A stretch of DNA of 40,124 nucleotides, from assembly GCA_031291075.1 (NCBI GenBank), contig JARLJS010000020.1, positions 1 through 40,124 of the forward strand, read 5' to 3'. The stretch is from Nevskia sp. GTDB taxonomy: Bacteria; Pseudomonadota; Gammaproteobacteria; Nevskiales; Nevskiaceae. Below are positions 4,411 to 29,165 of this stretch, one piece after another. Below the pieces are notes generated by a model that saw only the letters and a list, made by a program, of their open reading frames with translations, was not told where the DNA came from and searched no databases. The translations under genes were made by a program, and so were the position numbers. Each line of letters starts with the position of its first letter. The first letter of the stretch is position 1.

Positions 4411-4852
4411 CCGAACATCCCCCTGCTGAGGGCGGATAGCTTAAGGCATGTCGCCGGGCGAACCTGAAATGTGAACGGGACTACAGTTTTGCAGCCGTCC
4501 GGCATATCTGACGGCCCGTTCATCTGCCCCCCGATGATTTTTCCACTGCCCCCGGTGTGAGATAGGCCTTACCCTTACGGCGAGGCTAGGACCGTGTGCC
4601 TGCAGGGATGTGGCGCGGCCCATGGTATCGTGGGAGACGGATATGGAGATGGGAACGTTCGTGGACTGCTCGCCGGTCGGTTCTTTAGCCGGTGCCGGAG
4701 TCACGGGCGTGCCTCATAATTCTGATAATTCAAAGACTCAGGCCCGGCGTAGGAACCGCCGGCCGGGAAGTCTCGACGTGCAGTGCAATGCGCCTGCCAG
4801 CCCGTTGCCGAACGGCCGGCCGCGCAGTGGCGAGCGGTAGGGAGTGGCAACG
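4411..4852. other. 442-bp divergent intergenic region
   Basis: This lies between the divergent GST and TadG-like genes. Short ORFs here have no recognisable product. An AT-rich patch at about 4714-4736 (CATAATTCTGATAATTC) is the only lower-GC stretch and could carry a rightward -10 element. GC-rich inverted segments follow at about 4741-4770. A GGGAG ribosome-binding site sits at 4840-4844 ahead of the ATG at 4853. I could not recognise a riboswitch or structured RNA family. Confidence 0.4.
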
Positions 4853-6829
4853 ATGAGCAATAAGAACTTTTCCCCCAGGCGTAGCGGTGGCCTGCGCGCG
4901 TCCGCCCGTCGTCAGCGGGGTGCGGCGGCCATCTACGCCGGCGTGATGCTGATCGCGATGATCGCCTCCGCGCTGCTCGCGATCAACGTCGGACAGCTCT
5001 ATTTCGCCCAGCAGGATCTGCAGAAGCAGGCCTCCCTGGCGGCGCTGGCCGGGGCGGAAATCGGCAGCGGCTGCCGCAACGGCGGCATTCCGGGCGGCTT
5101 GGGGGAAGTCTCCGCCAAGGTTGCGGAAAGCCTGAACAACAACGCCAGCAAATTCACCTCCGGCGCCGCCCTGCTCAGCAAGATCAACGGCGCCCAGGCC
5201 GTGGCTTTGGGTCAGCTGGTGCAGCCGGCGGGCGGCCTGAACACCTTCGTCGACTTGAGCACCGGCGTGTCCGGGCCGGTGTCGGCCGAAACGAATCCGA
5301 ACATCAACGCCGTGCGCGTCAACGTGTCGCGCCCGTTTCCGTCGCTCATCGGCAACCTGTTCGCACCGCCCGGCGGAACGCTCAAGGCGTCCGCCACGGC
5401 TTACCAGCCGGCGTGGGGCAATTTCTACGTAACCACAGGCCTGGCCGCCGTCACCACCAACAACTCGCCCTTGCTGGCGCCGGTGTTCGACGCGCTGCTG
5501 GGCTTGAAGAGCGGCTCCGGCATCAGCGCCGCTGTGCTGGCCGGCGGCGCACTGGCCAACGCGCAGATCACGTTGAGGGACCTGGAAATACAGGCCGGCG
5601 TGAACAACCTCAACGACCTCGTCAACCTCGGCACCAACCTGAGCGGAGCGGTGAAGATTCTCGGCGATGCTACCTCCGGCGCAGCGGGAGGCCTGATCAG
5701 CGGTCTCGCCGGCAAGGTTTACAACGGCGGCGGCGGTCCCACCCAGAAGTACTTCGGCCAAGTGCTGAATGATTTTGGCGGCACTTTCAACCCCACCGTG
5801 ACGGACCTGGCGTCTGCACAGACCTTTGTGAACGCGCAAAGCCTGTTGATAGCACTGGGCGAGGCTGCCTCCGTGGGCCAGACCTTACAGCTGAACATCA
5901 CCAGCCCTCTTGTTTTACCGAAACTCAACAGCGGCAACACCCATACCACCATGTTCCTTAAGGTGTTTGCGCCAGCCCAGTTTTCGCCGCTCGGACCACC
6001 GGGACCGATGAACACCGCGCACAGCGAGCAGCTCGAGTTCGATGTGCGCTTCGATTACACACAAACTTTTCCTAGCGGTCTTTTGAAAGGCAGCAGTTTT
6101 GACATCTACCTCGGCACCAACTTCAGCCTCGCATCCGGAACGGGAACTCTCACCTCGCTGAGTTGCCCTTCCGCCGCTAACCCCAAGCCCACGGCTTATG
6201 TCGATGCCACCACCCAGGTTGGCAAGCTGACCATGGGTTCATTCACTCCGAGCACAACATCCGATACTGCTCTCGGCTCCGGCAACCTCGTCAACCTGGT
6301 GCTTTCCATCCCCATCCTGGGCATCAATAACATGGAGCTCCTTGACGTGGCGCTGGCCAATAACGACGTGCAAGTCGATCTCGGAGATCCTGGCTCGCAC
6401 CTCACCGGGCCTTACAACACCTACCTGGCCGGCGTATCGGACACCACGGACCTTCATCCGCACAACTACACCTATATTCCCGACGCCCCGGACAACAAGG
6501 ACACGATCGCCAGCTCCGCGGTATTGAGCAGCGCGGTACGGTCGTTGTTCGGCAGTCTGGGCAACAAGGACAACCTGAAGATCACCTTGTTCAAAGCGGA
6601 TCTCAGCGCTATTGTGGATCCAGTTCTCTCGGCCATCGGGGCGGCGATCAACCCGCTGGTGACCTTGATGGACGGCATCATCGAGGCCCTGCTCCAGCTC
6701 CTGGGTGTCCAGTTCGGCGACACCACCGTGGTGATGAACAAGGCCTACATCGGCCAGCCGGTGATCGTCAGCACGGCGCTGCCGGTTGCAGCTCCCGCAG
6801 CGCCCAACGCGGTAGCCTCGGTGCCGTAA
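4853..6829 (+). CDS. TadG-like pilus-assembly protein (orphan)
   Basis: A 658-residue secreted or membrane-anchored protein. After a basic N-terminus (ARRQRG) comes the hallmark TadE/TadG-type hydrophobic segment, residues 24-45 (AAAIYAGVMLIAMIASALLA), then INVGQLYFAQQDLQKQASLAALAGA, the conserved start of TadG-like proteins. The remainder is Gly/Ala/Asn/Thr-rich beta-type sequence without a recognisable von Willebrand A domain. Cysteines are few (for example GSGC at about 75). TadG family members help Flp/Tad pilus assembly at the envelope, but no tadA, B, C, Z or rcpA is in view, so a pilus role is unproven here. The ATG at 4853 is chosen because GGGAG stands at the proper distance; a GTG nine bases upstream is the alternative. 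Confidence 0.8.
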   Translation: MSNKNFSPRRSGGLRASARRQRGAAAIYAGVMLIAMIASALLAINVGQLYFAQQDLQKQASLAALAGAEIGSGCRNGGIPGGLGEVSAKVAESLNNNASKFTSGAALLSKINGAQAVALGQLVQPAGGLNTFVDLSTGVSGPVSAETNPNINAVRVNVSRPFPSLIGNLFAPPGGTLKASATAYQPAWGNFYVTTGLAAVTTNNSPLLAPVFDALLGLKSGSGISAAVLAGGALANAQITLRDLEIQAGVNNLNDLVNLGTNLSGAVKILGDATSGAAGGLISGLAGKVYNGGGGPTQKYFGQVLNDFGGTFNPTVTDLASAQTFVNAQSLLIALGEAASVGQTLQLNITSPLVLPKLNSGNTHTTMFLKVFAPAQFSPLGPPGPMNTAHSEQLEFDVRFDYTQTFPSGLLKGSSFDIYLGTNFSLASGTGTLTSLSCPSAANPKPTAYVDATTQVGKLTMGSFTPSTTSDTALGSGNLVNLVLSIPILGINNMELLDVALANNDVQVDLGDPGSHLTGPYNTYLAGVSDTTDLHPHNYTYIPDAPDNKDTIASSAVLSSAVRSLFGSLGNKDNLKITLFKADLSAIVDPVLSAIGAAINPLVTLMDGIIEALLQLLGVQFGDTTVVMNKAYIGQPVIVSTALPVAAPAAPNAVASVP

Positions 6830-16102: not shown

Positions 16103-16732
16103 GTGACTTCCTCCGCGGTTTCCCCTGCTCCGCCCAATCCCTTTGCGCAGGCGCGCTTTCTGCTGTCGGCGGCCAAGCTGGCACAACTGCCCCAGGACGA
16201 GGCGGCGGAGGCGGCTTTCGTCGGCCGCTCCAACTCGGGCAAATCCAGCGCCCTCAACCTGATCTGCGAGCAGAAGCAGCTCGCCCGCGTCAGCAAGACG
16301 CCGGGGCGCACCCAACTCATCAACCTGTTCGGGATTCCATCCGGCGGGCGCCTGGTGGACCTGCCGGGGTATGGCTTCGCCCAGGTCCCGGAGGCAATAC
16401 GGCGCAACTGGGGCGGGCTGGTCGGCGGCTACGTCGAGCAGCGTCCGAACCTGCGCGGGCTGGTGGTGGTGATGGACATCCGCCATCCGCTCACCGATCT
16501 GGACCGGCAGATGCTGGGCTGGTGCAGCTCGCGTGAGCTGCCCGCGCACGTGCTGCTGAGCAAAGCGGACAAGCTCGGGTTTGGCGCCAGCAAGTCGACC
16601 TTGCTCAAGGTGCAGGCCGAGCTGCGCGCGCTCGACCCGGCGATGACGGCGCAGTTGTTTTCCGCGCAGGCGAAGACCGGCGCCGATGCCGCGCGCGCGG
16701 TGCTGTGCGCCTGGCTGGGACTGGGCGGGTAA
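16103..16732 (+). CDS. engB: Ribosome biogenesis GTPase EngB (YihA/YsxC)
   Basis: A 209-residue small GTPase needed for assembly of the large ribosomal subunit. G motifs are complete: G1 GRSNSGKSS, switch/G2 KTPGRTQLINLF, G3 DLPGYGFA, G4 SKADK, and the terminal SA.. G5 region (LFSAQAKTG). Its length is typical. Translation is taken from GTG at 16103; an ATG 14 bases upstream opens a five-codon out-of-frame peptide that overlaps it. It is convergent with polA, with two small RNA genes between. Confidence 0.95.
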   Translation: MTSSAVSPAPPNPFAQARFLLSAAKLAQLPQDEAAEAAFVGRSNSGKSSALNLICEQKQLARVSKTPGRTQLINLFGIPSGGRLVDLPGYGFAQVPEAIRRNWGGLVGGYVEQRPNLRGLVVVMDIRHPLTDLDRQMLGWCSSRELPAHVLLSKADKLGFGASKSTLLKVQAELRALDPAMTAQLFSAQAKTGADAARAVLCAWLGLGG

Positions 16733-16753: not shown

Positions 16754-16793
16754 AAAAAAAATGTGCCCGGCGGGTCGGGGGAACCCGCCGGGC
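16754..16793 (-). terminator. Intrinsic terminator of small RNA copy 1
   Basis: Perfect 11-bp GC stem 16765-16793 (GCCCGGCGGGT arms) with a C-rich loop, followed on the minus strand by ACA and an eight-U run at 16761-16754. Confidence 0.88.
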
Positions 16794-16869
16794 AACGCGT
16801 TCCGGCTTGGGGGTACCGGAAAGTCCGCCCAGGGAGTGAGGCGGAGAACGGGAAAGGGAGTCACCGTTC
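16754..16869 (-). ncRNA. C-rich-loop small RNA, copy 1 (sX13-like)
   Basis: A predicted ~116-nt leftward transcript made of four hairpins. In transcript order: GAACGG/CCGTTC with a loop containing CTCCC; TCCGCC/GGCGGA with loop containing CUCCC; TTCCGG/CCGGAA with loop ACCCCC; and the terminator GCCCGGCGGGT/ACCCGCCGGGC with a CCCCC loop followed, after ACA, by eight U. A promoter-like TTGAAC (16899-16904) and TCTAAC (16875-16880) precede the start. It differs from copy 2 at only four positions. Size, C-rich loops and polA neighbourhood recall the Xanthomonas small RNA sX13, which pairs with G-rich mRNA sites; Spot 42 occupies this place in enterics. The RNA itself is inferred from sequence. 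Confidence 0.82.
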
Positions 16870-16874
16870 ACAGA

Positions 16875-16904
16875 GTTAGATGGGTGCGGCCCCGATAAGT
16901 TCAA
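16875..16904 (-). promoter_or_regulatory. Predicted promoter of small RNA copy 1
   Basis: On the minus strand TTGAAC (16904-16899) and CATCTAAC (-10 at 16880-16875) are spaced 18 bases apart. Both boxes are kept in copy 2 although the sequence between and around them has diverged. An AT-rich block at about 16934-16953 lies upstream, as an UP element would. Confidence 0.6.
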
Positions 16905-16998
16905 GGCTCGCCGGAACATTCCAGCAACTCACTGAAAAAATTAATAAAATTGTAGCAAGTGCCTGCCGATGCGGCCGTTTTTAAGCAAGGCTTCGGAC

Positions 16999-17037
16999 AA
17001 AAAAAAGTGCCCGGCGGGTCGGGGGAACCCGCCGGGC
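16999..17037 (-). terminator. Intrinsic terminator of small RNA copy 2
   Basis: GC stem 17009-17037 identical to that of copy 1, followed on the minus strand by AC and an eight-U run ending at 16999. Confidence 0.88.
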
Positions 17038-17114
17038 AACGCGTTCCGGCTTGGGGGTGCCGGAAAATCCGCCCAGGGAGTGAAGGCGGAGAACGGGAAA
17101 GGGAGTCACCGTTC
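16999..17114 (-). ncRNA. C-rich-loop small RNA, copy 2 (sX13-like)
   Basis: Second tandem copy, 245 bp to the right of copy 1 and nearer polA, with the same four hairpins and the same terminator. Differences from copy 1 are one extra U in the second loop, two substitutions at linker or loop-closing positions, and one base before the U-tract. All stems are intact. Its own promoter-like boxes are at 17120-17125 and 17145-17150. Two complete transcription units rather than one with a duplicated terminator are therefore likely. Regulation and targets cannot be read from the sequence; exposed CCC(C)C loops predict pairing with G-rich mRNA leaders, including Shine-Dalgarno sites. Confidence 0.82.
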
Positions 17115-17119
17115 GGAAA

Positions 17120-17150
17120 ATTAGATGCGGGCTCTGCCACGTTAGTTCAA
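17120..17150 (-). promoter_or_regulatory. Predicted promoter of small RNA copy 2
   Basis: Minus-strand TTGAAC (17150-17145) and TCTAAT (17125-17120), spacing 19, with the start about 6 bases downstream at 17114. The boxes match those of copy 1. Confidence 0.6.
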
Positions 17151-17302
17151 CCGCATTGCAACAAATTTTTCGAGATGGGTCGGCAAAGCCAATAAGAATG
17201 GTGCAAGCGACTGAAAGAGATACAAACTTTGTCGCAAATTTCCGCAGCGTGTGCCGCTGGGCGGATTTTGCTTGATCTTAACTATCTTGCAGCGATCAGC
17301 TT

Positions 17303-20113
<2,811 letters not shown>

Positions 20114-20128
20114 GCGGGAAACCACAAG

Positions 20129-20214
20129 GCAGTCCGCAAATAAACGCAAATAAACGCAAATGAAAACCGGCTGTTGTCTCTATTCGCGTTCATTTGCGTT
20201 CATTTGCGGACTGC
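20129..20214. repeat. 33-bp inverted repeat with 10-bp periodicity, upstream of polA
   Basis: Arms 20129-20161 and 20182-20214 match as reverse complements at 30 of 33 positions; the three mismatches are A.C pairs. Units are ACGCAAATAA / ACGCAAATGA. It has the same outer GTCCGCAAAT end as the repeat at 13303-13383 and lies between lysA and polA, 15 bases upstream of the polA ATG. Confidence 0.88.
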
Positions 20215-23374: not shown

Positions 23375-26300
23375 CTACCGCCCGCGCTCAAACGTATAGA
23401 TCAGATCCCCGCCGGAGGCCACGCCGGACTCGGTCTGCAGCTTGAAGCCGTGGCCGATGTCGTACAGCATGCGGAAGGTCTGTCCCGGCTGGAACAGGCT
23501 CACGCCGTAGCTGACGAACAGCCTGGGCGTGAGGTACTTGCCGAGCGTGAGCTGGGCCGCCTGCGAGGTGTAGGCGGCGGAGCCGGGGGCATTCTGCGCC
23601 GCCTGTGAGCCCTGGATCGAGGTCGCGTCGGCGGCGACGCTGGCGCCGCCGACCGGCCCCTGGCCGATGGAGATCTGGTCCAGGCCCAGGCTCTTGCCGA
23701 ACTTCTGCGCGAAGTAGTCGCCACCGGACAGGCCCAGCGACAGCGCCGCCTGCGAGATCGCGCTGCGGTCGCCGGAGGAGCTCTGGTCGAGCGGGCGTCC
23801 CAGCACCAGCCAGGAGAGCTGCTGCTCGCGCGCCATCGCCGGGTCGGACTGCAGCGTGAGGAGCGGCTTGTCGAGCGTGCCGCGCACGCGCACGCCGACG
23901 GTGATGTCCTGCTGCGGCCTGCGCGTGGCGTAGAGATCCACCGCCGGCTGCTGGATCGGACCGCCATCGAAGATCAGGCGGCCGGTCTCGATCTTCAGGT
24001 CCTGGCCGTAGGCCTGGTAGCGACCCTCCACCAGCCGCAGCTCGCCGAGGCCGCTGGTGTCCCGCTGCGGCTCTTCGCTGACCGTCACCGATCCTTCCAG
24101 CCGCGTGGCGAGGCCGAAGCCCTTGAAGTTCACGGCGTCGCCGAGCACCAGCGCCACCGTGCTGTAGATGCGCAGCGGCGGAGGCTGCGGCTGCGGCTCG
24201 GCGCCGACGATCACCTGGTCGGAGCTGATGGTCACGCCGCTGTCGCCCAGACCTTGCGGTGTGATGTCGGCCTTGGGCACGGTCAGGGTTCCCTGCAGGC
24301 GGATGCCGCTGTCGTCGCTCTGCAGGTGCAGGTCCGGAGTCACCCAGATGCGCGCGTCCGGCACGGCCACCGCCTGGAAGTTCTCGCCCTTGAGCGCCAG
24401 GTCGGCGCGCGGCGGGGCCACCGATGGATCGAGCGTACCGTCGACCCTGAGGGCGCCGCCGCCGGACACCATCGAGCCGTCGAGTGCGAGCGGACCCTGG
24501 CCGCGGCCGGTGATGTGTACCTCCAGCTTCTGCACCTCGATACCCGCCTGGACCACCTTGGCGTGACCGTCCTGCAGCGCGATGTCGCCCTGCAGACGCG
24601 GCAGCGCCACCGTGCCGCCCAGGTCGAGCTGGCCGGCAAGGCTGCCGCCGACCGCGTGAAGCTGCGGCACCAGGGATTCGACGAAGGCCAGGTCCGGCAC
24701 GCTGACGTGCAGCGCGCCGGACAGCGGGCGGGCATCGAAGTCCGCCGCCGGGCCGGCACTGACGTCGCCGCCGATACTGCCGTTGGCAAAGCGCAGGTCG
24801 AGCGCCGCGTGAATGCGGCCCTGCTGCTCGTCGGCCTTGAGCGTGCTGGGTTCCAGCTCCACCACGGGCGCGCCCGGAGCCTGGAAGTGCACGACGGTGG
24901 TGCGCAGATCGGCGCTCACCGCCGCGACGTCGGCGCCGGCGAGGTCGATGCTGCCGCTGCCATCGATCTCGCCGTCGATGGCGTACTTCGGCGGCAGCAG
25001 CGGCTTGAAGGTGGCGAGCAGCAGGCGGTCGAGGTCCAGCGACAGGCGCAACCCGGCGCGGGTCACGTTCTGTTCCAGGCGCAGGCAGGCGCGGCCGCCA
25101 TCGCCGGAGAAGCAGGCCGGCTCCAGGCTTTGCCGCGTCGCTCCCAGCAACAGGCCCGCCGGCTTCTCCAGCGCCCAGGGCGGCAACTGCGCCGGCGCCA
25201 CCCGGCCCGACTTGATCTGGCCGCCCCACTCGCGGCGGCGGCGGTCATAGCCGCCGTCCACCGCCAGCTCGAGATCGCCGCGTTCGCTGCGCAGGTCGAG
25301 CGCGGCGCGGTGGTAGGTCTCCTGGCCGTCGGCCGTCAGCTTCAGGCTGTGGATGGCGAAACCGACCTGCGCCTCGTGGACCTGCAGGCCGAGATGCGAG
25401 GGCCTGGCCGGGTCGAGATCCGTGTCCAGCTCCACGGCGGCAACGCGGTAGGCCTGGTAGCGCAGCCCTTCCGCATGGCCGTGCGCCTGCAGGTGCGGGT
25501 CGTCCAGCGGGCCCTGCAGCTTGAAGTCGAGCAGCGCGTGCCCGCCGAGCTGCGGCGCGAACGCCGCCAGGTTGGACGCGTCGAGCTTGCCCGCCAGGTC
25601 GAACGGCGGCGTGGCCTGGCCGCTGGCATCGAGCCGGTTGTTGCCGAGCGACAGCGCCAGCTTTTGCAGCAGCACGGTATCGCCGCGCAGCTCGGCATTG
25701 GTCGACAGGCTGAGGGGACTACCGCGGAACTGGGAACGGTCGAGGTTCACCGCCACGGCGATGGCCGGCTTGCCGTCGCGCTGGATGGTCCGGGTCTCGA
25801 CGCTGCCGTTGATGGAACCGGACCAGGCCACTGTCGGCTGCTTCGCCGCGGTGCTGGTGAACAAGGGCACGAAAGGCGCCGGGTCGAAGGAGGCGATCTG
25901 CGCCTTGAGGTCGACGCTCAAGGTGGGCGACCAACCGACGCTGCCGCTGGCGGCCATGCTGCCCTGGCCGGACTGCAGGGTGAGTTGGGCGAGGTGTACA
26001 CCACGCGTATCGGTGTCGCCCTGCGCCTTCATTTGCAGCGGCAGGCCGCGCAGCTGCGACGGATCGAGGTGAAGGTCGAACACGATGTCCGGCGCGCCGT
26101 TGCGCAGTACGGTGCGGGTATCGAAACCGCCGTTGAGCGAACCGTTCCAGCCGGAAGCGAACAGCGCCGGGTCGAGCTGGGCGAAGCTGCCCGCCAGGTC
26201 GGCGCGCAGCTCGGGCGCCCACGCCACGCTGCCGCGCAGCTGCGCCGAGCCCTTGCCGGAGGCGAGCTTGAGCGCGGATAGATTGATCTGCTGAAAATCA

Positions 26301-27148
26301 CCGTCGCCGCTGGCGGTGAGGTCGAGCGGCAGCTGGCGGAGCTGCGCATCGGTGTGCAAGTCGAAGCGGTAACGATCGAACGGTCCGCTCAAGGTGGCCG
26401 TCCCGTTCGCCCGCTCCAGCAGGCGATCGCCCGCGCGCCCCAGCAGCGGCCAGCGCAGCTCGCGCCAGTGCAGCTGCAACCGGCTGCCGGCCGCGTCGAA
26501 ACCGAGCCTGCCGCTGGCGTCGATCTGGCCCGGCCCCTTGAGTTCGAGCGCGGCCACGTCGACATGGTCCGCGGCCATGCGTGCCTGGCCGTTCAGTTGC
26601 AGCGGCCCGGTTTCGGCGAGGTCGGCGTCGAGGCGGGCGATTTCGAGGCGGTCGCCGATCCAGCTGCCCGCGAGGCCGGCGCGCTCGAGGCGGAACGGCG
26701 GAGCCGCGCCCTGGCTGAAGCTGAAGCCGCGCAGGCTCAGGGCGTCGATGGCGATATCCAGCGGCAGCTTCGCCGGCAACCGGACCGGTCCCGCCGGGCC
26801 CGAATCCTTTGCCGCCGGCGGCAGGTGCAGCTGCAGTTCCTCCACCTCCGCCACCTCGACGTGCAGTCGCCGTTGCAGCAGTTCGTGCGGACGCAGACGC
26901 AGGTGGAGGTGCGCCAGATCCACCCGCGTACCGTCGGCGCCGGCATAGTGGACGTCGTCGACGACGAACTCGCGCAGCAGCGTGCCCTGGACGGCGCCGA
27001 TGCGCACGCTGCCACCGCCGAGCTCGCGCGCCAGCCCGGCCAGCGCCCGCAGGCCGGCCGCGCTGTCCAGCGCCAGCCACAGCGCGGCACCGGCCAGCAG
27101 CAGTGCCGCCGCCACCACGGCGATGACGAGGCCGAGGCGGCGCCTCAC
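23375..27148 (-). CDS. tamB: Translocation and assembly module protein TamB
   Basis: A 1257-residue AsmA-like bridge protein of the envelope. The N-terminal membrane anchor (RRRLGLVIAVVAAALLLAGAALWLAL) is followed by about 1000 residues of beta-strand repeats with Gln/Leu/Asp patterns (for example LDASGQATPPFDLAGKLDASNLAAFAPQLGG), a lipid-binding groove in this family. The C-terminal DUF490/TamB domain contains GELRLVEGRYQAYGQDLKIETGRLIFDGGPIQQP, VRGTLDKPLLTLQSDPAMAREQQLSWLVLGRPL and the terminal GQTFRMLYDIGHGFKLQTESGVASGGDLIYTFER. It overlaps tamA by four bases. TamB with TamA supports outer-membrane protein insertion and phospholipid transport. Confidence 0.95.
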   Translation of the reverse strand: MRRRLGLVIAVVAAALLLAGAALWLALDSAAGLRALAGLARELGGGSVRIGAVQGTLLREFVVDDVHYAGADGTRVDLAHLHLRLRPHELLQRRLHVEVAEVEELQLHLPPAAKDSGPAGPVRLPAKLPLDIAIDALSLRGFSFSQGAAPPFRLERAGLAGSWIGDRLEIARLDADLAETGPLQLNGQARMAADHVDVAALELKGPGQIDASGRLGFDAAGSRLQLHWRELRWPLLGRAGDRLLERANGTATLSGPFDRYRFDLHTDAQLRQLPLDLTASGDGDFQQINLSALKLASGKGSAQLRGSVAWAPELRADLAGSFAQLDPALFASGWNGSLNGGFDTRTVLRNGAPDIVFDLHLDPSQLRGLPLQMKAQGDTDTRGVHLAQLTLQSGQGSMAASGSVGWSPTLSVDLKAQIASFDPAPFVPLFTSTAAKQPTVAWSGSINGSVETRTIQRDGKPAIAVAVNLDRSQFRGSPLSLSTNAELRGDTVLLQKLALSLGNNRLDASGQATPPFDLAGKLDASNLAAFAPQLGGHALLDFKLQGPLDDPHLQAHGHAEGLRYQAYRVAAVELDTDLDPARPSHLGLQVHEAQVGFAIHSLKLTADGQETYHRAALDLRSERGDLELAVDGGYDRRRREWGGQIKSGRVAPAQLPPWALEKPAGLLLGATRQSLEPACFSGDGGRACLRLEQNVTRAGLRLSLDLDRLLLATFKPLLPPKYAIDGEIDGSGSIDLAGADVAAVSADLRTTVVHFQAPGAPVVELEPSTLKADEQQGRIHAALDLRFANGSIGGDVSAGPAADFDARPLSGALHVSVPDLAFVESLVPQLHAVGGSLAGQLDLGGTVALPRLQGDIALQDGHAKVVQAGIEVQKLEVHITGRGQGPLALDGSMVSGGGALRVDGTLDPSVAPPRADLALKGENFQAVAVPDARIWVTPDLHLQSDDSGIRLQGTLTVPKADITPQGLGDSGVTISSDQVIVGAEPQPQPPPLRIYSTVALVLGDAVNFKGFGLATRLEGSVTVSEEPQRDTSGLGELRLVEGRYQAYGQDLKIETGRLIFDGGPIQQPAVDLYATRRPQQDITVGVRVRGTLDKPLLTLQSDPAMAREQQLSWLVLGRPLDQSSSGDRSAISQAALSLGLSGGDYFAQKFGKSLGLDQISIGQGPVGGASVAADATSIQGSQAAQNAPGSAAYTSQAAQLTLGKYLTPRLFVSYGVSLFQPGQTFRMLYDIGHGFKLQTESGVASGGDLIYTFERGR

Positions 27149-28896
27149 AAGCCCACCCGCACACCGAGGTGCAGATGCACGATCTCCGCTCCCGGATCGA
27201 AGGGATGGGCCAGGTCCACCGCCACGGAACCGAACGGCAGGCGGTAGCGGAAACCCAGGCCGGCGCCGTAGTGCAGCTTCACCTCCGGCACGTCGTCGAC
27301 GCCGCCAGCGTCGGCGAAGGCGGCGAGGCCGTAGTTCCTGTAGAACTGCCAGTCGACCTCGGCGCTGGCGGTGGTGAGGTACCTGCCGCCGACCAGGTTG
27401 CCCTGGGGGTCACGCGGCGCCAGGGCGTGATAGCTGTAGCCGCGCACGCTTTCGTCGCCGCCGGCGAAGAACCGCTGCGACGGCGGCAGGTTGTCGAAGC
27501 CGGACACGAACACCGCGCCTTCCTCCAGCCGCCCGAGCAGGCGCAGACCGGGACCGAGCGGGATGACGCCGCGCAGCTTGAGCAGGCCTTCGATGAAGTC
27601 GGTGTCCGAGAGCAGCACCGTGCTGCCGCCGTGCACGTCCATCGAGGCGAACCAGCCCCGGCGCGGGTAGATGGGGTCGTTCACCTGGGTACGGCTGAAC
27701 GACACGCCGGGGGTCAGCAGCTTGCTGCTGTTGCCGGGCTCGCTCTGCAGGTTGTACTGGTCGGCGGAATAGACGAGGTAATAGCGACGCTGCCAGTCGC
27801 CGTCCTGCCGCGTGTAGGCGGTGCCGAGGGACCACAGGTTCTCGTGGATGCCCTGGAAATCCTGCTTCAGCCCCTGGCCGGTGAAGCTGATGGAGTCGCC
27901 CGGCACGCTGCCGTAGGGAACGCGGTACTCGGCCACCGCGGTGCTGATGTTCTGCGAGGGCTGCAGGGTCAGTCGCAACTTGTGGCCCTTCTCGTTGAGA
28001 CGGCGGAACTCCATGCCGGCAAGCGCGCGCGGTCCGGTGTCTGTGCCGTAGCCGGCGCCGAACTTGTACACCCGCGGCGGCTTGGAACTGGTATGGATGA
28101 CCACCGGGATGCGCCGGTCGGGGCCGGCCTTGCCCTTCTGCGGTTCCAGCTCCACCAGCTTGAAGTAGTCGAGGTCGCTGAGGGCGAACTGCGTCGCCAG
28201 CACCTTGGACGAATCGAACGGCTCGCCTGGCACGATTTTCAGGTAACGCCGCAGCAGGCGGTCCTGCAAGCGCCCGTCCTGCTCGATGGTGACGTCGCCG
28301 AAGTACCAGCGCGGCCCGGTGTCCAGGGCCAGCAGGACCTCGGCGGTGTTGGCCTCCACATCCACCCTCAGCTCGCGGCGGGTGAAGGCGGCGTCGAGAT
28401 AGCCGCCGCCGGTGGCGGCCTGCAGCAGGCGCGCCTTGAGCGCTTCGTAGTCCGGATGCTTGAGCCGCTGGCCGGTCTGCAGCCGCGGGCGCGACACCAC
28501 CTTCTGCAGCGGGGCGTAGTCCTTGCCCTCGCCCTCGACGCGGATGTCGATGCGCGAGATCAGCACCGGCGGGCCGGCATCCACCGTGTAGGTGGCGGTC
28601 CAGTCCTGGCCGCCGCCCTGCAGCCCGGACTTGACCGTGGGGTTGTACCAGCCGAAGGGTTGCAACGCCTTGCGGATGTCGTCCTCGCCCTGCGTCAGCA
28701 GCCGCCGCACCTCGGCTTCGTCGTACTGCTCCTTGGCCGCGTCCACGCTCTTGGCGTAGTCGAGGATGCGCAGCTGGGCGTAGGCGTTGTCCTGCTCGTC
28801 AGAGCCCAGGCCGCGCACGCGCACGTCGATACCCGCGAACGCGGGCGCGCTCGCGCAGAGGACGCCGCAGAGCAGTAGAAGTCGGGCACGGGGCAT
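27145..28896 (-). CDS. tamA: Autotransporter assembly factor TamA (Omp85/BamA family)
   Basis: A 583-residue outer-membrane protein. The signal peptide is MPRARLLLLCGVLCASAPAFA. Three POTRA-like domains follow (about 22-270), with phrases such as YTVDAGPPVLISRIDIRVEGEG and LDTGPRWYFGDVTIEQDGRLQDRLLRRYLKIVPGEPFDSSKV. The Omp85 barrel includes KFGAGYGTDTGPRALAGMEFRRLN, the barrel signature RFFAGGDESVRGYSYHALAPRD (the (V/I)RG(Y/F) tip of loop 6), and ends in VDLAHPFDPGAEIVHLHLGVRVGL. The ORF can be prolonged upstream by 67 codons through the MITE-like repeat, but the ATG at 28896 gives the signal peptide. tamB follows with a four-base overlap. Confidence 0.95.
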   Translation of the reverse strand: MPRARLLLLCGVLCASAPAFAGIDVRVRGLGSDEQDNAYAQLRILDYAKSVDAAKEQYDEAEVRRLLTQGEDDIRKALQPFGWYNPTVKSGLQGGGQDWTATYTVDAGPPVLISRIDIRVEGEGKDYAPLQKVVSRPRLQTGQRLKHPDYEALKARLLQAATGGGYLDAAFTRRELRVDVEANTAEVLLALDTGPRWYFGDVTIEQDGRLQDRLLRRYLKIVPGEPFDSSKVLATQFALSDLDYFKLVELEPQKGKAGPDRRIPVVIHTSSKPPRVYKFGAGYGTDTGPRALAGMEFRRLNEKGHKLRLTLQPSQNISTAVAEYRVPYGSVPGDSISFTGQGLKQDFQGIHENLWSLGTAYTRQDGDWQRRYYLVYSADQYNLQSEPGNSSKLLTPGVSFSRTQVNDPIYPRRGWFASMDVHGGSTVLLSDTDFIEGLLKLRGVIPLGPGLRLLGRLEEGAVFVSGFDNLPPSQRFFAGGDESVRGYSYHALAPRDPQGNLVGGRYLTTASAEVDWQFYRNYGLAAFADAGGVDDVPEVKLHYGAGLGFRYRLPFGSVAVDLAHPFDPGAEIVHLHLGVRVGL

Positions 28897-28907
28897 GCCG
28901 GGGCATG

Positions 28908-29165
28908 ATCCTAGAAACGGCAGTTGGGGATCGGACCCAGGATTGATTGGGCGGCGATCCCGCAGCGAGGGATGGCGCCGGCCTGGAGCGACACCCATGG
29001 TGGTTCCATGGGTTTCGCGAAGGCCAAGCCAGACCCGCGAGGGGCGCCGAGCGCCGATCCAGCGGGAGAAGCATTCACCCAGGTGGCGAGCCCACACCTT
29101 TGCAAATTCGTAATCACCTCAACCAATTTGCGGCTTCTCCCGCGGCCAACTGCCGTTTCTAGGAT
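28908..29165. mobile_element. MITE-like element, 258 bp, with perfect 20-bp terminal inverted repeats
   Basis: The ends 28908-28927 (ATCCTAGAAACGGCAGTTGG) and 29146-29165 are exact reverse complements. The interior has no believable ORF and contains smaller dyads, such as CCCATGG..CCATGGG at about 28991-29012. Flanks show no obvious target duplication. It fills nearly the whole gap between the TraB/GumN gene and tamA, starting 12 bases upstream of the tamA ATG, so tamA must use a promoter in, or reading through, the element. Confidence 0.75.

Follow-up and report, generated by a model that had tools for sequence, protein, structure and literature searches.

A tandem pair of predicted small RNAs with C-rich hairpin loops between engB and polA in Nevskia, and their likely kinship with the anti-hemB and sX13 RNAs

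The window analysed here, a stretch of 40,124 nucleotides from a Nevskia sp. genome (contig JARLJS010000020.1), carries two predicted 116-nt units that can be read directly on the minus strand between engB and polA (Table 1); their length presupposes a transcription start 6 nt past the -10 box. Each copy folds as four successive hairpins with loops containing, in order, CUCCC, CUCCC, CCCCC and CCCCC. The last hairpin is followed in both copies by a run of eight T, and the terminator of copy B ends 21 nt from the engB stop codon. The fold energies of copy A (-60.6 kcal/mol, z -6.35) and copy B (-58.4 kcal/mol, z -5.74) were matched by none of 200 shuffled sequences in either case. The two copies agree in 110 of 115 aligned columns (96%), the hairpin bodies differing by three substitutions and one 1-nt indel, and the predicted start by one further base. 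The 60 nt directly upstream, promoter boxes included, are only 56% identical between the copies (39/70 aligned columns), and the subsequent 60 nt are 52% identical, compared with a mean of 49% in shuffled sequence. An earlier note, made from the letters of this DNA alone, had described two minus-strand units of about 116 nt with four stems, C-rich loops and an eight-U terminator, matched TTGAAC/TCTAA boxes upstream of them, bodies differing at four sites and a diverged spacer. Direct reading and folding bear out each element of this description: the boxes are found in both copies, the four sites are the three substitutions and the indel, and the spacer identity lies at background. A protein-coding reading of the units was ruled out by inspection, given the 1-nt indel between the copies and a longest frame that runs antisense into engB. 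Judged by its sequence, the locus is a real and well-supported pair of predicted sRNAs, placed at the edge of a known Rfam family.

Table 1. Features of the engB-polA interval, in window positions (double changes: base pairs altered on both sides in the alignment of 38 units; R1: the model built here)
Feature	Position	Strand	Basis
engB (yihA), convergent neighbour	16103-16732	+	Pfam MMR_HSR1, 54 bits; tblastn with relatives
sRNA copy B (engB side), ~116 nt predicted	about 16869-16754	-	four hairpins; R1
Copy B hairpin 4 with eight U, intrinsic terminator	16754-16794	-	fold; direct reading
Copy B hairpin 3	16800-16821	-	fold
Copy B hairpin 2, loop one base shorter than in A	16824-16845	-	fold; alignment
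Copy B hairpin 1	16846-16869	-	fold
Putative sigma-E type promoter, copy B	16875-16902	-	GAACTT 16902-16897, N16, TCTAAC 16880-16875; read directly
sRNA copy A (polA side), ~116 nt predicted	about 17114-16999	-	four hairpins; RF02837; R1
Copy A hairpin 4, CCCCC loop with eight U, intrinsic terminator	16999-17038	-	double changes at 9/11 pairs
Copy A hairpin 3, CCCCC loop	17044-17065	-	fold; double changes at 2/5 pairs
Copy A hairpin 2, loop with CACUCCCUG	17068-17090	-	fold; double changes at 4/7 pairs
Copy A hairpin 1, CUCCC loop	17091-17114	-	fold; double changes at 4/6 pairs
Putative sigma-E type promoter, copy A	17120-17148	-	GAACTA 17148-17143, N17, TCTAAT 17125-17120; read directly
polA, same-strand upstream neighbour	17303-20149	-	DNA_pol_A, 529 bits, and both exonuclease domains; predicted start codon

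The four-hairpin structure is under selection. In a structure alignment of 38 related units from the family, RNAalifold recovers four helices comprising 29 pairs, 19 of which have changed on both sides, and 97.4% of the alignment cells are paired. The covariation score of 0.406 compares with 0.186 in shuffles (reached by 0 of 500) and with 0.04-0.09 when the partners are slid; the separate measure of further pair types shows no excess over shuffles of the same 38-unit alignment (262 of 500 reach it). All 38 units agree in the cores of their loops, which read CCC, CUCCCUG (hairpin 2), CCC and CCC. The hairpins described in the earlier note are kept in related genomes, with compensatory changes in the stems and constancy in the loop cores. 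That the stems drift while the loop cores stay fixed suggests that the RNA works through its loops. Among 101 units from the class, hairpins with CCC in the loop number 2.63 per unit against 0.31 in letter shuffles, a count that is partly favoured by the model that picked the units, which scores those very letters.

This model, R1, was built from the 38 units, both window copies included; left out of its training were L002, which represents the same locus as L001, and the near-identical relatives L028 and L030. It scores copy A at 119.2 bits and copy B at 113 bits, both being members of the training set. R1 finds the RNA in 83 of the 85 genomes of the order and in 106 of 369 genomes sampled from the class. 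From a phylum sample of 398 genomes it retrieves 25, of which 23, the window's genome included, belong to the same class; the two matches outside it (E 4.5e-4 and 5.6e-4) are weak and were taken as chance. The duplication noted in the window is real and yet not peculiar to it: at least two R1 matches occur in 21 of the 58 family genomes, tandem copies within 1 kb in at least 16 of the 58, and three to six matches in 13 of the 14 genomes of genus g21, which belongs to the same order. Among the matches listed, those in G005, G008, G027, G013 and G029 include copies on separate contigs or at a distance from one another.

The genomic position of the RNA is conserved as well. At 89 class loci, with 101 units in all, the neighbourhood was searched by tblastn, the two proteins of the window serving as the only queries. 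These loci come from 88 of the other 105 genomes with R1 matches; the remaining 17 have mostly weak matches and a few stronger ones (e.g. G246, G367, G105). Of the 89 loci, 77 lie near polA and/or engB: within about 1.5 kb both genes are present at 37, engB only at 25, polA only at 15 and neither at 12. Where the genes are found, 49 of 52 polA genes are upstream and share the strand of the RNA, and 59 of 62 engB genes are downstream on the opposite strand; E. coli K-12 shows this arrangement with spf between polA and yihA. At two loci (L107 and L114) the R1 match, which has a GAACTT-N16-TCTTAG box, is flanked instead by a Radical SAM/TRAM gene on one side and an AAA-ATPase gene on the other; the RNA family may have a second home there. 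At two further loci, Rfam matches to the cspA thermoregulator just over threshold stand beside the sRNA (L062, 958-1398; L069, 1015-1448). The sX13 paper reports that RNA as always downstream of polA, and already notes that it shares its locus with Spot 42 and alpha-r7, asking about other bacteria (PMC3771888). In the open-licence literature this was the only paper found on an sRNA downstream of polA, and a link between sX13 and ErsA was not found there; an earlier mention is possible.

To which of the known RNAs do the units belong? The earlier note had taken them for an sX13-type regulator, an assignment favoured by the site beside polA, the C-rich loops and the R1 matches at sX13 loci; the closest Rfam family, by contrast, is anti-hemB (RF02837). 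Its model matches copy A with 49.9 bits over 17000-17092, 0.4 above the curated threshold of 49.5, and copy B with 42.4 bits, below it, and the threshold is exceeded in only 15 of the 58 family genomes. In the covariance-model search that the note had suggested, sX13 (RF02232) matches only weakly, at 26.3 and 26.4 bits (E 0.006) where the threshold is 50, and Spot 42 (RF00021) is absent from the 19 Rfam matches up to E 10. ErsA (Pseudomon-1, RF01719) matches over part of its model with 17.2 bits (threshold 50), and among alphaproteobacterial families BjrC80 reaches 26.1 bits (threshold 80) and ar14 38.0 bits in L066 (threshold 58.8), so low that kinship with either is unproven. Membership in the Spot 42 family was rejected: its arrangement, polA > sRNA < yihA, is identical, but its predicted hairpin loops are not C-rich and R1 gives it only 9.6 bits. 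As for the name of the closest family, hemB is absent among 20 neighbouring frames typed by Pfam; the window sRNAs adjoin engB and polA, and a hemB adjacency is implied by the family name alone.

The comparison was also made in the opposite direction. R1 meets three anti-hemB loci that adjoin engB (L293, L295 and L299, with 76.5-85.6 bits for RF02837), coincides at L290 with an sX13 match over threshold (53.8 bits; neither polA nor engB was seen at this locus), and meets two bona fide sX13 loci with 30.0 bits (L181) and 23.3 bits (L180). Since R1 thus meets above-threshold loci of both kinds, anti-hemB and sX13 look like one family. A four-copy tandem array in G079 matches anti-hemB throughout, one of its copies also matching sX13 (48.3 bits) and one ErsA (37.1 bits), all under the respective thresholds, and among 274 class genomes RF02232 matches occur in 12, five of which have them at R1 match places (G096, G079, G165, G316 and G105). 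ErsA is linked only indirectly, through its locus, its promoter and weak RF01719 matches, six of nine of which fall on R1 loci among the same 274 genomes; R1 gives no match up to E 10 at the bona fide ErsA locus L192. The Rfam listing shows no clan for the three families.

Each of these RNAs resembles the window units in some respects and departs from them in others. The Rfam model of anti-hemB comprises three hairpins over 81 positions, whereas the window units have a conserved hairpin 1 upstream of these and add a sigma-E type box and tandem copies; ncS04 of Burkholderia cenocepacia, an RNA of 105 nt, is equated with anti-hemB in the part of its description cited here (PMC5688073). The sX13 of Xanthomonas is alike in its site downstream of polA, its similar length and its C-rich loops, with weak but consistent profile matches in both directions. 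Its published account, as far as used here, describes three stem-loops with loops of 4C, 4C and 5C (PMC3771888). In the fold of an sX13 locus obtained here, a 5' hairpin with a loop that is not C-rich precedes three hairpins whose loops are C-rich; sX13 loci differ from the window in having no clear sigma-E -10. ErsA shares the polA-downstream site, a sigma-E/AlgU type promoter at the level of the motif and a C-rich terminator loop, and differs in the weakness of its profile matches.

GAACTT-N16/17-TCTAA is the pattern recognized by sigma-E (RpoE, AlgU), and the boxes upstream of the window units, of which relatives carry those of copy A at near-fixed spacing, appear best read as being of this type, a reading absent from the interpretation in the earlier note. 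A regular expression of the sigma-E type matches 35 of the 38 family units, the remaining three having GAAACTT. In a scan of the class that searched for exactly these sigma-E letters, 80 of 101 units score at least 9 of 11 (4.1% of dinucleotide shuffles do so) and 60 at least 10 (0.2%), while 21 score below 9; the spacer measures 16 nt in 68 of the 80 units with a site. The -35 letters include 30 instances of TGAACTT and 27 of GGAACTT, with -10 boxes such as TCTTAT, TCTGAC and TCATAA. By count, the pattern GAACTT-N15-17-TCTRA is not over-represented in the window's 5.65 Mb genome (5 matches against 3 for the backward pattern). The five comprise copy B, a site directly before rpoH (identified by TIGR02392, 400 bits), one ahead of a frame whose beginning resembles a signal peptide, and two more; rpoH is a classical sigma-E target. 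The same genome has rpoE (295 bits), followed by a frame weakly resembling rseA (29 bits, cut-off 263), and the region upstream of rpoE holds no match to the sigma-E type motif. Elsewhere in the putative family the boxes vary. The two bona fide sX13 loci show only GAACC and a TTATA-like -10, a degenerate form of the sigma-E box, and four anti-hemB loci (L287, L291, L292 and L297) have no clear box by eye. The bona fide ErsA locus (121 bits) carries TGAACTT-N17-TCATAG, and ErsA is stated in the cited parts of two papers to be under AlgU control (PMC7264166, PMC5819304).

The loop sequences CUCCC and CCCCC are complements of GGGAG and GGGGG as they occur at ribosome-binding sites. For sX13, the sections cited report that C-rich loops repress mRNAs with G-rich motifs and that the RNA is Hfq-independent (PMC3771888); ErsA is described, in the part of the source used, as repressing oprD together with Hfq (PMC7264166). 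A search of the 58 family genomes for the loop 2 complement before a start codon (CCAGGGAGTG-N0-10-ATG) returned 61 rows against 2 for the backward control, and a flank-swapped control pattern 20 rows against 9 for its own; the target pattern resembles a ribosome-binding site, 12 of the 61 rows are the complement of the sRNA genes themselves, and such counts alone prove nothing. Genuine starts, and their sorting into envelope and cytosol, were judged by eye after the matches had been seen. The starts with the complement are often those of envelope genes, namely OmpA, two TonB receptors, a PilQ-like secretin, HlyD (two genomes), AcrB and MscL; more belong to a peptidoglycan-binding protein, an AI-2E transporter and others, and outside these to AceF (by eye), GST (three genomes), enoyl-CoA hydratase and alcohol dehydrogenase. 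The flank-swapped control gave few genuine starts, by eye, at AcpP, PilA, Bcp (two genomes) and ferredoxin. Envelope starts account for about 11 of 17 distinct genuine starts against 1 of 4 in this control, a difference that is not secure. In exploratory terms, then, the tilt of the candidate targets towards envelope genes would fit a sigma-E sRNA while falling short of statistical security.

A looser pattern yields 15 rows in the window's genome against 4 in the backward control, about half of them not at convincing starts; among the matches are two proteins ranked with the envelope, one with LysM and one with SCPU, further a putative lipoprotein and a CHASE2-like membrane protein (both by eye) as well as the cytosolic aceF. 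Within the window, a frame at 4839-6829 (+) of 661 aa with ATG at 4853, TadG-like by eye and with no Pfam match, is preceded by AGGGAGTG, the loop 2 complement, and is a candidate target. In L210, the complement stands before a 56-aa frame (~1336-1503, -) with a VAGG stretch, bacteriocin-leader-like by eye. The window also contains, at 23375-29097 (-), two adjacent genes, one TamB-like (1257 aa) and the other TamA/Omp85-like (650 aa), which form a TAM outer-membrane assembly pair.

Starting from the observed structure and its covariation, the conserved locus, the links between families and the promoter motif, we infer that the window encodes two sibling trans-acting sRNAs of one old polA-downstream family, induced by envelope stress via sigma-E, and we consider this reading probable. 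The family would be that of anti-hemB and sX13, with ErsA possibly related. Under envelope stress each copy would be transcribed from its own sigma-E promoter and end at its own terminator. The product would be a rigid row of four hairpins in which the stems may vary and the C-rich loop cores are held fixed. These loops would pair with G-rich ribosome-binding sites (GGGAG, GGGG) and block translation of the targeted mRNAs, many of them perhaps encoding outer-membrane, pilus and envelope proteins. Tandem copies would raise the sigma-E-driven dose and keep their bodies nearly identical. The neisserial sibling sRNAs also form a near-identical pair.

Could the same RNA family be expressed from a housekeeping sigma-70 promoter (TTGAAC / TCTAAT) and serve carbon or growth regulation in the manner of Spot 42? 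The string TTGAAC...TCTAAT does also resemble a sigma-70 promoter, and Spot 42 of E. coli occupies the same place between polA and engB; sX13 and some anti-hemB loci are devoid of a clear sigma-E box, and the sigma-E pattern is not over-represented in the window's genome. The class sites, however, read GAACTT and TC with a prevailing 16-nt spacer, far above shuffles, and one sigma-E type site in the window's genome precedes rpoH; we consider the sigma-70 reading unlikely. We find it hard to believe that the units are RNA decoys (sponges) or mere strong terminators insulating polA from engB, and not trans regulators. Short, very stable and terminator-ended elements between convergent genes do invite this view, as does a 13-nt perfect complement between the polA 3' region (17257-17269) and hairpin 2 of copy A (17064-17076). 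Promoter boxes of their own, four covarying hairpins, invariant C-rich loop cores and additional copies that lie at a distance or on separate contigs (G005, G008 and G027) all argue to the contrary, and the polA complement is not conserved in relatives. In a comparison of 54 rows, which include the window's genome, three rows without the interval and several rows of one genome, the longest complement in other loci is 5-9 nt, about as in shuffles, and a conserved sponge in the polA 3' region was accordingly rejected; the exception is G012 (two rows), with a 12-nt complement in an interval that also holds further sRNA copies.

A different question concerns the second copy. The pair might be a very recent duplication whose second member has no function of its own, which is compatible with the sigma-E explanation for a single copy, and which we regard as possible if rather doubtful. 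The copies are 96% identical and pair as sisters, with a FastTree support of 0.94 and an ultrafast bootstrap of 98, in a tree of the units that stands without the copies missed by the regular expression behind it (R1 finds four against two in G012 and in G022, and two against one in G026). However, identity of the flanks is at background, and the relatives closest in EngB and PolA sequence, these same three genomes, all have arrays of 2-4 R1 matches. Pairs can also be old: in five Solimonas genomes with two copies each, four of the second copies form one group (bootstrap 77; 99 for G037/G046), although support for a group of the corresponding first copies is only 45 and the G040 second copy lies outside the second-copy group. 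Spacers at background level around near-identical bodies suggest that the copies were homogenised, that they were repeatedly lost and regained, or that the duplicated unit was short. Given flanks no more alike than background and arrays in the closest relatives too, sequence homogenisation seems at least as likely as recent duplication. The earlier note had offered selection or recent duplication as the reason for the likeness of the bodies; recent duplication is thus only one option among several.

With envelope-stress-induced sibling sRNAs as the preferred reading of the window, a broader proposition can be framed. In enterics, MicA and RybB shut down envelope protein synthesis. Similarly, anti-hemB, sX13 and ErsA may be branches of one ancient sigma-E-driven sRNA of the polA-engB interval in the Gammaproteobacteria (in the GTDB sense), which would act to the same end in much of the class, through its C-rich loops, and which in Nevskiales would have formed dose-tuned tandem arrays of two to six units with bodies alike and spacers drifting; we see the chances of this proposition as evenly balanced. 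What is gained is the sigma-E type promoter, the conservation of the locus across the class and the bridge between anti-hemB and sX13. Separate and partly uncharacterised families would thereby be drawn into one testable hypothesis, that of a class-wide envelope-stress sRNA, for which the tandem arrays may offer a natural test of sRNA gene dosage.
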